Source of the DNA: an uncultured Candidatus Saccharibacteria bacterium
Lineage (GTDB): Bacteria; Patescibacteriota; Saccharimonadia; Saccharimonadales; Saccharimonadaceae
Reading direction: 5' to 3'
NCBI GenBank assembly: GCA_947302975.1
Contig: CAMYXA010000003.1
Span: forward strand, 1-64,000
DNA: 64,000 nucleotides
This document shows positions 34,490-62,167 of this stretch, one piece after another. The notes under the pieces were generated by a model, which made no database searches, had not been told where the DNA came from, and saw only the letters and a program-made list of their open reading frames with translations. A program made the position numbers and the translations under genes. Position 1 is the first letter of the stretch. Every line of letters begins with the position of its first letter.

Positions 34490-37201
34490 ATGTTTGAGGC
34501 CATCATACATTTTATTCTCATGCCAATAGTTTGGATTCCTGCACTCATAATTATTGCGATCCTCATCTATAAAAACTACAAAAAACTCAACAAGCTGAAA
34601 GTACTAAACGTCGATTCAGTTCTTTTGATGCTAGAAATTCCGCGCACCAACGACAAAAAAGAGCTCGCCGCCGAACAGCTTTTTGCCTCCCTTCATGGTA
34701 TTTTGAGAGACAAAACCGAACTCAAAAACTCCGATGGCGTCCAAGAGCATCTTTCATTCGAAATTGTTTCAACCGCTGGCCAAATCCGCTTCTATGTTTG
34801 GGTGCCAAAAGTGCTCCAAAGCTTCGTCGAAGGCCAGATTTATTCTCAATATCCATCAGTCCAAATCCACAAAATCAACGAAGATTACGCGGATGCCCGT
34901 CATAATTATCCAATCGTCTATTCATCCGAGCTCGCTTTGACCGACAACGAAGCTTTGCCAATCAAGACCTTTGATACATTCGAAGTGGACCCGCTTGCCG
35001 GCATCACCGGTACTCTCGCTAAGCTCGACACCGCCAGCAATGAAGAACTTTGGATCCAAATTCTCACTCGTCCAATTCCAGATGATTGGCACAAGTCCAC
35101 AACTGATACCTGGATCAAGCGCGTCAAGGCAGGGAAGCGTCCACTTTTCGCCGGCGTAGACTGGACTTGGATTATTGAGGCCTTTGGCGCCCTCTTCCGC
35201 CCACCTGCCGGAGGAACTGGCTCGGACGTCAAAATCGAGCTTTCCGAACGTGACAAAACTCGTATTTCAAAGGCCGAAGAAAAAGCTACCAAGCTCGGCT
35301 ACGAAGTCAAAATCCGCCTCGCATATCTTGGCCACTCCGACATTGACGCCAAGCTTAACATGCAAGCTCTCGTTGGTACTTTCAAACAATATAACTCAAC
35401 CAACCTAAACGGCTTCAAAATGCTCGGTGGCAGTTTCAATCCAACCGACCTCGACGCTTATAAGATGCGCCAATTCTCAAGCCGCGGTTTCATCTTGAAC
35501 ATCTCTGAGCTCGCATCTGTTTATCACTTACCACACACCTCTGTTGAGACCCCTAATATCGTCTGGGCAAACAGCAAAACTGCCGAACCGCCTTCCAAGC
35601 TCCCGGTTCTTACCGGCCTCGCCTCGAACGATTCCAATATTTCCGCCTTTGGTCTCACCAACTTCCGCGGCATCAACCACCAGTTTGGCCTGCTTCGCCG
35701 CGATCGCTCACGCCATGTTTATATCATTGGCCAGACCGGAGCAGGGAAAAGCGGCCTCCTCGAACTCCTAGCGCTCTCTGACACCTTCTATAACCAAGGT
35801 TATTGTATTATCGATCCACATGGCGACTTTGCCACCGACAACCTTCGCTACGTGCCAAAATCACGCATCGATGACGTCGTCTATTTCAACCCTGCCGATG
35901 TCGAATACCCAGTCGCCTTCAACCCTCTCGAGGTCACTGACCCAGCCAGAAAACCAAATATCTGTTCTGAGGTGATCGGCGTTCTCAAACGTATGTTCGG
36001 CGACTCCTGGGGTCCACGTCTCGAGCATATCCTTCGCTATACCATTCTCGCCCTTCTTGATCGCCCAGAAACCACCCTCCTCGATATCTCCCGCATCTTG
36101 ACCGATAAAGAATTCCGCAAAGAAACCCTCGAATACTGCCAAGACGTCACCGTTCTCCAATTCTGGAAACACGAATTCGGCCAGTGGAATGAGAAACAGG
36201 TCAACGAGTCAATCGCCCCTGTTCTCAACAAGGTCGGCGCCTTCACTGCCAACCCTATCATTAGGAACATCATTGGCCAGCCAAAATCCAGCTTCAATAT
36301 CCGCAAAATCATGGATGAAGGCAAGATTCTCGTCGTTAACCTCTCTAAGGGTCTCATCGGCGAAGATAACGCTGGCATTCTTGGTGCCTTCCTAGTTACC
36401 AAAGTTCAGCTCGCTGCTATGTCCCGCTCAGACATTCCAAACGTCGAAGATCGCCGCCCATTCTATCTCTACGTTGATGAGTTCCAGAACTTCGCTACCG
36501 ATTCCTTCGCCGTAATCCTCTCTGAGGCCCGCAAATATGGCCTCAATCTCACCGTTGCTAACCAATATGTTTCTCAAATGACTGATTCCGTCCGCGACGC
36601 CGTATTCGGCAACGTCGGTACCACCATCAGCTTCCGCGTCTCCGCCGATGATGCCCCAATCCTCATCAAACAGTTCGAACCAACCTTCGAAGAATCCGAC
36701 ATCATCCAGCTCAACAACCGCAACTTCGTAATCTCGATGATTATTGGTGGCGAAAAGGTTCCGGCCTTCTCTGCAACCACGCTCTCAATTCCAAAGACCC
36801 CGGACGACAATTTTGACGCCATTGTCGCCCATTCTCGTGCTAACTATGCCCGCACTCGTGCCGACGTTGAAGCTGAGATTAAAGATACAATCGAACAGTC
36901 TGAGAAGTACAAAAAGGTCTTATCTGATTCCGGCCGCGAAGCTGGCACCCAAGCTGTTTTCTCCCCTGCAACCGAACAAAAACCGAACTTTGCTTACAAG
37001 CCAAAATTCCCAAAGCCAGCCACCCCGCAAGGCGATTTCATGAAGCAACACCTAAGCCCAAATACCGCTGAAGGCAAGGAGCGCCTCGGACTCAAGGATC
37101 TCGCCAAACTCGTCAGCGAAAAGCAAGCAGAGAACGAATCAAAAAACAAAACTGCAACCAAAATCGCTTCAAAAAAGTTCAAGAACAAACCACGCAAATA
37201 G
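34490..37201 (+). CDS. TraG/VirD4-like type IV secretion coupling ATPase family protein
   Basis: N-terminal TM; Walker A IIGQTGAGKSGLLELLAL; CIIDPHGDFATDNL; Walker B RPFYLYVDEFQNFATD. Confidence 0.8.
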   Translation: MFEAIIHFILMPIVWIPALIIIAILIYKNYKKLNKLKVLNVDSVLLMLEIPRTNDKKELAAEQLFASLHGILRDKTELKNSDGVQEHLSFEIVSTAGQIRFYVWVPKVLQSFVEGQIYSQYPSVQIHKINEDYADARHNYPIVYSSELALTDNEALPIKTFDTFEVDPLAGITGTLAKLDTASNEELWIQILTRPIPDDWHKSTTDTWIKRVKAGKRPLFAGVDWTWIIEAFGALFRPPAGGTGSDVKIELSERDKTRISKAEEKATKLGYEVKIRLAYLGHSDIDAKLNMQALVGTFKQYNSTNLNGFKMLGGSFNPTDLDAYKMRQFSSRGFILNISELASVYHLPHTSVETPNIVWANSKTAEPPSKLPVLTGLASNDSNISAFGLTNFRGINHQFGLLRRDRSRHVYIIGQTGAGKSGLLELLALSDTFYNQGYCIIDPHGDFATDNLRYVPKSRIDDVVYFNPADVEYPVAFNPLEVTDPARKPNICSEVIGVLKRMFGDSWGPRLEHILRYTILALLDRPETTLLDISRILTDKEFRKETLEYCQDVTVLQFWKHEFGQWNEKQVNESIAPVLNKVGAFTANPIIRNIIGQPKSSFNIRKIMDEGKILVVNLSKGLIGEDNAGILGAFLVTKVQLAAMSRSDIPNVEDRRPFYLYVDEFQNFATDSFAVILSEARKYGLNLTVANQYVSQMTDSVRDAVFGNVGTTISFRVSADDAPILIKQFEPTFEESDIIQLNNRNFVISMIIGGEKVPAFSATTLSIPKTPDDNFDAIVAHSRANYARTRADVEAEIKDTIEQSEKYKKVLSDSGREAGTQAVFSPATEQKPNFAYKPKFPKPATPQGDFMKQHLSPNTAEGKERLGLKDLAKLVSEKQAENESKNKTATKIASKKFKNKPRK

Positions 37202-37733
37202 CGGGGAAATAGGGAATTAGTAGTTCTCTACCCCTGTTATTCCCCTGTTATTTTCGTGCAAAATAGGCCTTCTACCCCTGTTAAACCCCAAATCGACCCC
37301 CAATAAGCCCCGTATAGGCCTCCATGGCGCCTCTGTTCGACCCCTGTTGCTTCTCTGTTCCACCCCTGTTAAACCAAAAACCCACAAAAATCCGACAAAA
37401 ACTGACAAAAAATCTAAATGCAAAAGCCCGGCAGAATTAGACCCATCAAAGCAGAGAATTAAACGTCAGAAAAAATCACGAAACCAAAATCCAGCCAGGA
37501 CCAGAAAAATCCAGCAAATCCGGACGTAAAGTCAATCGACCGATCGACGTGTTTTCAATGTCGCACAATACATATTTTACGACATAGGTACTTTCAAATT
37601 AGGACGGTTTATCACTCGTCTATATAACCATAAGCACAGTAGCGATTCTCCTATAAAGCGGGAACTGCATTTCTATCACTAGGCAATGCCCGCATTTAAA
37701 CTGCATTTATTACTTATTATTGCCGAATTATTT

Positions 37734-37932
37734 TTCAAATAAATATTAATGTGAGCCTTAGTAAATCCCACGCCGATACATTTGAATTGGCCCAAGAAGA
37801 TTTTCGGAAGTCTCCAGAAGCCTGAGGAAACCCCGTTTTCCGAAGGCTTCTGCCGAGGCTTCCAGGGATCTTCCTGGCGTCAATTCGAGTATCCAGTGGG
37901 ATTTACTAGGCTCCGCCCTGATATTTATTTGA
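37734..37932 (+). ncRNA. Rod-like imperfect inverted repeat (~200 nt), RNA or element candidate
   Basis: Arms TCAAATAAATAT...GAGCCTTAGTAAATCCCAC...CAGAAGCCT / AGGCTTCTG...GTGGGATTTACTAGGCTC...ATATTTATTTGA; several mismatches become G-U pairs on the + strand. Confidence 0.6.
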
Positions 37933-38161
37933 CTTTTCCACAGGCCCATGTCCTAAATGTCCTAAAATCCTTTCACAGCACCTTTCACGCCAGATTTTTC
38001 GCAATTTGACATTTCCCCATTTTATTTCCCTATTTCCCTTTTTCCCCTGTTATTTTACATATTTTACAACATATTTACCCCCTGAATATCCCCTAAAAAA
38101 GAACAAAAACCGAACAAAAGGGTAGAGAATAACAGAATCAAACAGGGGGTAGAGCACAAAA

Positions 38162-38183
38162 TAACAGGGGTAGACCCCTGTTA
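38162..38183 (-). terminator. Palindromic TAACAGGGG taga CCCCTGTTA, terminator-like for the minus-strand cluster
   Basis: 9 bp stem followed on minus strand by TTTTG. Confidence 0.5.
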
Positions 38184-38200
38184 AAATAGCCTTTATTTCC

Positions 38201-38836
38201 CTATTTCCAGAATGCCCTACCCTCAACGCGAGCGTCTATATATTCAAAATCCCCGATTCCCCTCTCTGCTAGATATCTAATCACCCTATCCGCATCTTCT
38301 GCCGAAACCGCAGTTCCACGATCAATTGTCGTCTTAATATAGCCATTTCTCCCCTCAAGATAGAGATCCACTTCCCTAATGCTTCCAGATGGTATAACCG
38401 CCTTGACCACCTTATACCCAAGATCATGAAAATCCACTTCAATCATGCCAATATACTCTTTCATACGGTTCGTAATCGAAACACCAGCAGAAGACGCGTC
38501 TGCATCCACAATTTCAACCGTCGGCGCGTAGCTCACAATGTCTGGAGTATCAGAGGCGGAAGGACCGACCTTCCGTCCCGAAATCAGCACAATTCCTACA
38601 TAGATCAAAACCACTGCCGCAAGGAAAAATAGCGCAGACGTGACCGACACCCGGACCGTGCGTTTTTTCTCACTCTTTTTCCTAGCCGCCATTCTCTCAG
38701 ACGAGCTCTCGAGCTTTTCACGGCGCTCACCAATCGTGCGCCCCATTTTAAAGCTCGAATTTCGATTCATTCGGCGACTAGCTAGCGTTGGCTTCGGTGG
38801 CACTTCTGGCGTGTTTTGTTTTTTCTTTTTCATCAT
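38201..38836 (-). CDS. Single-TM protein at ftsQ/divIB position (putative)
   Basis: Basic cytoplasmic N-terminus, TM, extracytoplasmic domain ending FEYIDARVEGRAFWK; follows murG. Confidence 0.45.
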   Translation of the reverse strand: MMKKKKQNTPEVPPKPTLASRRMNRNSSFKMGRTIGERREKLESSSERMAARKKSEKKRTVRVSVTSALFFLAAVVLIYVGIVLISGRKVGPSASDTPDIVSYAPTVEIVDADASSAGVSITNRMKEYIGMIEVDFHDLGYKVVKAVIPSGSIREVDLYLEGRNGYIKTTIDRGTAVSAEDADRVIRYLAERGIGDFEYIDARVEGRAFWK

Positions 38837-62130: not shown

Positions 62131-62167
62131 TACTAACAGGGGTAAAAGCCAGATCGCTCAAGAAAAA

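Follow-up and report, generated by a model that had tools for sequence, protein, structure and literature searches.

Joined sister chromosomes are separated in E. coli by XerCD/dif/FtsK/KOPS, in which a 28-bp site of 11-6-11 layout occurs once per chromosome (PMC5357621). Systems with a single recombinase have also been described, namely XerS/difSL, XerH/difH and XerL in Legionellales (PMC5357621, PMC9765430). In other phyla, dif and the shift in skew are strongly correlated (Kono and colleagues, PMC3025954); in P. aeruginosa, it is dif that the skew follows, replication ending at another place (PMC6199493). As for Patescibacteria or Saccharibacteria, no description of a dif site was found in the open-access literature that we searched.

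Here, we analysed a 64-kb stretch (hereafter the window) from an uncultured Saccharibacteria genome, in which copies of the 9-mer CCCCTGTTA are clustered between two genes. We consider, with a probability of roughly 0.8, that the cluster region is a chromosome dimer resolution locus (Xer/dif/FtsK) with flanking accessory arrays. Within this reading, computation gives good support to the dif site and to the point at which FtsK would converge. The cluster would thereby mark where joined sister chromosomes probably get cut apart at division in this ultra-small bacterium.

An earlier note on the same DNA had reported seven exact copies of CCCCTGTTA within 950 bp, and a motif search recovered all of them at the reported positions. 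The segment is indeed intergenic and convergent, the left gene having its stop at 37201 and the right gene at 38201. The genome-wide count proposed in that note gave 10 copies in the 673-kb assembly, of which seven are in the cluster; outside it, the window holds one more, at 62134. The expectation under a fourth-order Markov model of the window is approximately 0.002 copies per kb, and a density of at least five copies per 1 kb is reached in the window solely by CCCCTGTTA and its one-base shift. The locus reaches beyond the bounds of 37201-38210 first given to it, as one of its conserved parts is located within the left gene (36974-36988). The genes and the arrays are as follows:

34490 to 37201, + strand: HerA/VirD4-like ATPase gene, left neighbour (Pfam; synteny).
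37231 to 37371, + strand: left CCCCTGTTA array, with exact copies at 37231, 37242, 37275 and 37363 and a near-copy at 37341; position and strand conserved in the genus.
38044 to 38183, mixed strands: right CCCCTGTTA copies, exact at 38044 (+), 38162 (−) and 38175 (+), with a near-copy at 38140 (−).
38162 to 38183, − strand: inverted 9-mer pair followed by a T run, terminator-like.
38201 to 38836, − strand: gene of 211 aa, right neighbour, located after mraY-ftsW-murG.

Throughout the genus, and also in further families of the class, dif has the HerA/VirD4-like ATPase gene on its left. On the right, the 211-aa protein had no Pfam or NCBIfam match, and its gene is probably FtsQ-like by position.

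The key element of the cluster, which the earlier note missed, is a 28-bp dif-type site. It stands among several other conserved or structured parts:

37558 to 37585, + strand: dif-type Xer recombination site, conserved in 32 relatives, one per matching genome of the genus, Patescibacteria-wide.
37603 to 37620, + strand: small GACG...CGTC hairpin just right of dif, seen by alignment in many relatives.
37735 to 37932, no strand assigned: long imperfect inverted repeat between dif and the right block (RNA fold z of −11.8).
38005 to 38018, + strand: block TTTGACATTTCCCC, conserved among relatives.

The site reads ATGTCGCACAA-TACATA-TTTTACGACAT, in an 11-6-11 layout whose arms are complementary at 9 of 11 positions; the arms are conserved and the centre is variable. 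Indeed, the alignment of 32 non-identical relatives (approx. 37557-37585) displays a sequence near ATGTCGCACAA, six variable bases and then TTTnnnGACAT. A DNA search of 60 relatives retrieved short conserved parts at the locus and no single long element. The strict dif pattern occurs exactly once per genome in the 26 matching genomes among 40 of the genus, the members compared being mostly draft assemblies. Beyond the genus, the 18 specified bases matched at least 117 stretches of the GTDB species genomes, against approximately seven by chance (our own estimate from the size of the collection), and matches with informative record titles nearly all belong to Patescibacteria lineages. Of 381 genomes sampled across the phylum, 170 displayed a match with at most two mismatches, mostly a single one, versus about a dozen control matches. 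Likeness to the dif sites of E. coli and B. subtilis is weak and, taken alone, not significant: identity is 16/28 to E. coli dif and 18/28 to B. subtilis dif, values not above the best chance matches. At a distance of 487 bp from dif, the sequence TACATATTTTACAACAT (38056-38072) is identical to its right half except for one change, possibly by chance; a full second dif site is absent.

Concerning the structured parts, a long hairpin lies at approximately +75 to +400 from dif in about half of 31 relatives (z below −5), and these hairpins are mostly non-homologous. The one at 37735-37932 has no other copy in the genome and belongs to no family shared among relatives, and no RNA family was detected at the locus with Rfam, at gathering as well as relaxed thresholds.

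The second line of evidence is the polarity of AGGGAA. Motifs facing dif on both arms were sought by a k-mer search in 13 genomes of the genus, with approximately 1 kb around dif excluded. Over these genomes, AGGGAA counts 179 forward and 9 reverse sites on the left, versus 5 and 240 on the right, a bias shared by 13 of 13. All 55 sites of the window (55/55) fit a single switch between 37210 and 38025, with dif at 37558, and the whole contig has ratios of 27:0 left of dif and 0:38 right of it. In G034, a nearly closed member of the genus, a 360-kb contig was read, and its best switch is at 86700-87333 for a dif at 87121 (143 of 156 sites agree); in G035 and G007, it falls within approximately 0.4 kb of dif, and in two other genera at or near dif, less sharply. 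The sites nearest to dif in the window are:

37211 to 37216, + strand: last AGGGAA left of dif, part of GGAAATAGGGAA, pointing to dif.
38026 to 38202 (at 38026, 38034 and 38197), − strand: first AGGGAA sites right of dif, pointing to dif.

Seven of the right-arm AGGGAA sites of the window are located in opposite-strand genes and still keep the polarity of the arm, so that gene direction is not the explanation of this polarity. Other G-rich hexamers, e.g. AGGGCC and TGGGAA, did not display a polarity of this kind, and the known KOPS/SRS octamers are too few in the sequence for a polarity count. A KOPS is a short non-palindromic motif that changes strand at dif; this is the behaviour of AGGGAA, which we infer to be read by FtsK through its gamma domain. 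The terminal-inverted-repeat look noticed previously dissolves at this point, as the copies of GGAAATAGGGAA (at 37205 on the + strand and, as reverse complements, at 38026 and 38197) are instances of this arm-polar hexamer found along the chromosome arms.

GC skew, for its part, is negative across the whole window. Two closed genomes of the family have one GC-skew switch at dnaA and another at approximately 540 kb (dif at 342 kb) and 665 kb (dif at 560 kb), respectively; in these genomes, dif is where both AT skew and the polarity of AGGGAA change, 105-200 kb away from the GC-skew switch. This split between AT skew and AGGGAA on one side and GC skew on the other was recorded for the whole window, G251, G384 and G034. 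At dif, GC skew is not of the same sign in all species of the genus. Closeness to a GC-skew switch, which is the usual correlate of dif and not its definition, is thus not observed here. Since GC skew runs through the locus unswitched, a replication terminus as such, as the earlier note had envisaged, is not supported, and it seems that, as a rule, dif is not a place where forks begin or finish. The part of that guess which fares better is the segregation site, as a dif-type site lies within the cluster, at the predicted point of FtsK convergence; among the guesses first made, terminus or segregation site comes closest. As FtsK polarity and GC skew switch apart, such genomes make it possible to test directly whether GC skew records replication or segregation.

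The proteins expected of such a system are encoded in the assembly (91% complete). It contains one tyrosine recombinase of 311 aa, nearest to XerD/XerC models, whose gene sits on a different contig from dif, and one FtsK with alpha, motor and marginal gamma domains (the gamma match being below the Pfam cut-off). Near-complete members of the genus, such as G166 and G027, likewise have one Xer-type recombinase. Among other Patescibacteria, nine genomes consisting of a single contig were compared: the best Xer-type gene is located at most approximately 3 kb from dif in seven of them and at 6-8 kb in two. At the ten loci of other Patescibacteria where xer was found (L306-L315), it lies 0.5-7 kb from dif, invariably on one side and strand. 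We infer that this Xer would be the catalyst at the dif-type site of our genome; the linkage to xer and the dif-like sites of phage contigs (see below) are indirect signs of recombination there.

Around dif, the 9-mer is a feature of the genus. Over 32 loci, CCCCTGTT is approximately 37-fold denser near dif than in flanking DNA; it is present near dif in 29 of them, with at least two copies in 22 and none in three. The left copies are mostly 170-340 bp from dif and almost all on the + strand, and the right copies in relatives are on the + strand in 26 cases and on the − strand in five. In approximately 20 relatives, the left 9-mers lie in frame within the ATPase gene's tail, where they encode Thr-Pro-Val or the like, and in seven genomes, our own included, they lie outside this gene, in mixed frames. 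Conserved coding potential across the region had been named beforehand as a refutation, and applies in part: it exists for the left copies of these 20 or so relatives, and their in-frame 9-mer codons nevertheless show selection at the nucleotide level. Indeed, of 56 PV pairs in the tails, 37 have the form C-CCT-GTT, versus 18 among 351 in long reading frames from the same genus (OR 36; p = 5e-25, a value that overstates independence because the species are related). This codon bias arose at the DNA level, through selection or else through copying. The array was not found in most other genera of the family which, with the three genus loci lacking it, indicates that it is not essential to dif as such. 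We regard the CCCCTGTTA array as a putative accessory array around dif that belongs to the genus; its position is conserved, and its nucleotides are maintained even inside coding sequence.

A second, longer motif is tied to dif more strictly:

36974 to 36988, + strand: left GAACAAAAACCGAAC, inside the ATPase gene as codons Glu-Gln-Lys-Pro-Asn, approximately 585 bp from dif.
38101 to 38115, + strand: right GAACAAAAACCGAAC, dif-linked motif, approximately 540 bp from dif.

This 15-mer holds CCGAAC twice, at 11-bp spacing, plus flank. It is present in 52 of 60 genomes of the genus and nearly every listed copy is within approximately 1.1 kb of dif, the position of which was checked for part of the genomes; G452 and G031 are clear exceptions. 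Both copies of our genome share the same orientation, and many relatives possess two right copies, 37 bp apart. The five codons of the left copy have a modal share of 0.90, versus 0.55 in the rest of the ATPase gene. In viral contigs, the same search gave 81 scattered matches, a 15-base pattern being expected there by chance. We also considered CCCCTGTTA as the FtsK-orienting motif and rejected it, its strand being mostly + on both sides of dif without a switch; as CCCCTGTTA and GAACAAAAACCGAAC are both mainly direct rather than inverted, neither is an FtsK-orienting sequence.

Taken together, these elements suggest a mechanism in which FtsK would load on the AGGGAA sites facing dif on both arms and translocate to dif, where it would activate recombination between two copies of the site, a step drawn by analogy with E. 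coli (PMC5357621). The single XerC/D-type recombinase, encoded elsewhere in the genome, would act on the 28-bp site. The CCCCTGTTA arrays and the two GAACAAAAACCGAAC sites (approx. 0.54-0.59 kb on either side) would be accessory sites for one or two DNA-binding proteins; judging from sequence, these putative protein sites probably serve to shape the dif synapse or to hold the terminus, possibly at midcell, this being the weakest step of the scheme. The protein-binding array proposed originally is in this sense retained as a putative one, the cluster flanking a dif-type site where AGGGAA polarity converges. More tentatively, and with odds that we place somewhat short of even, proteins binding CCCCTGTTA and CCGAACAAAAACCGAAC on both sides could, in Saccharibacteria of this genus, form a dedicated nucleoprotein complex at dif, controlling dimer resolution or terminus position. 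Its sites would be partly written into codons of the adjacent DNA-pump gene, a mode of control not known from other bacteria.

A reader could accept dif as real and still regard the CCCCTGTTA cluster as a by-product, formed by a repetitive Thr-Pro-Val tail of the left gene, which in our genome would have decayed to non-coding DNA, and by the hairpin of a terminator on the right. The in-frame position of the left copies in approximately 20 relatives would fit, as would the inverted pair at 38162-38183, a probable terminator of the right-hand gene, and copying of a short DNA unit within the tail could also yield uniform codons. This explanation is nonetheless unlikely, because it leaves aside the right-hand 9-mers, which are outside the left gene, as well as two relatives (L026 and L043) that keep the conserved C-terminus and carry copies beyond the stop, in three frames in L026. 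Moreover, PV codons are strongly biased to the 9-mer, and the independent 15-mer is conserved at the codon level too.

Far less probable is a replication element at dif, whether origin iterons or a polar fork trap of the Tus/RTP kind. GC skew not following dif argues against an active origin or a fork trap at the locus, and dnaA is elsewhere, at the place where GC skew switches in the two closed family genomes; in favour of such an element are same-strand 9-bp repeats between convergent genes, and a DnaA-box-like TTTTCCACA near +374 in several relatives. A Tus/ter or RTP trap was rejected on the same proxy for fork ends, the GC-skew switch, which does not fall at dif. As for a non-autonomous mobile element (MITE) or its remnant, suggested by the inverted GGAAATAGGGAA near both ends and by the long internal inverted repeat, we give it hardly any credence: the locus is single-copy in the genome and keeps to one gene junction across most of the genus, and the supposed ends are AGGGAA sites spread along whole arms. 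The reading as a dimer resolution locus with accessory arrays is the one that we retain.

Mobile elements do enter the picture by another route, as phages seem to use the Patescibacteria dif site. The dif pattern was detected in 33 IMG/VR stretches (L362-L394), against approximately one expected by a rough estimate of our own. In several of the viral contigs tested, it lies approximately 1-4 kb from a terminase gene, and many viral dif-like sites have centre sequences that are uncommon in chromosomes. These contigs are probably Patescibacteria phages that integrate through the Xer of their host. In two of them (L375 and L379), dif is preceded by an ftsQ-like gene and followed by genes that do not resemble its usual neighbour, and one of the two weakly matches a family of filamentous-phage assembly proteins; these could possibly be prophages inserted at dif in Saccharibacteria.

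Patescibacteria form a very large bacterial division with tiny genomes, for which dif and a polar motif provide a handle on the completion of the division cycle; the dif-linked 15-mer and 9-mer arrays are ready baits for new terminus proteins.

Compared with known systems, the locus shares with that of E. coli the 28-bp 11-6-11 site, one per chromosome, a polar FtsK-type motif converging on dif and an FtsK with a gamma domain, marginal here. It differs by its one recombinase, by AGGGAA, which replaces GGGNAGGG and is far denser (55 in 64 kb), by the conserved arrays flanking dif, and by a GC-skew switch located elsewhere. With single-recombinase systems it has in common one Xer and a use by mobile elements, and in other Patescibacteria the site adjoins xer, as in XerS/difSL; in contrast, the 311-aa protein is XerD/C-like, the spacing is that of a 28-bp site, and in Saccharibacteria xer is away from dif, which is adjoined by the HerA/VirD4-like ATPase gene. 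The cer/psi accessory sequences and matS/MatP are accessory or terminus-organising sites. Our arrays resemble them as putative protein-binding sites near an Xer site or in the terminus region, but consist of two motif families, on both sides, within approximately 0.6 kb of a chromosomal dif. The viral contigs with dif are candidate Xer-integrating elements, resembling those already known. In P. aeruginosa PAO1, as here, KOPS polarity ends at dif, with the replication terminus inferred or measured elsewhere (PMC6199493); its GC skew, however, switches near dif, whereas the switch is 105-200 kb away in the two closed genomes. The locus thus differs from known dif/Xer/FtsK systems as a variant among them, and is not a transposon, an origin or a fork trap.
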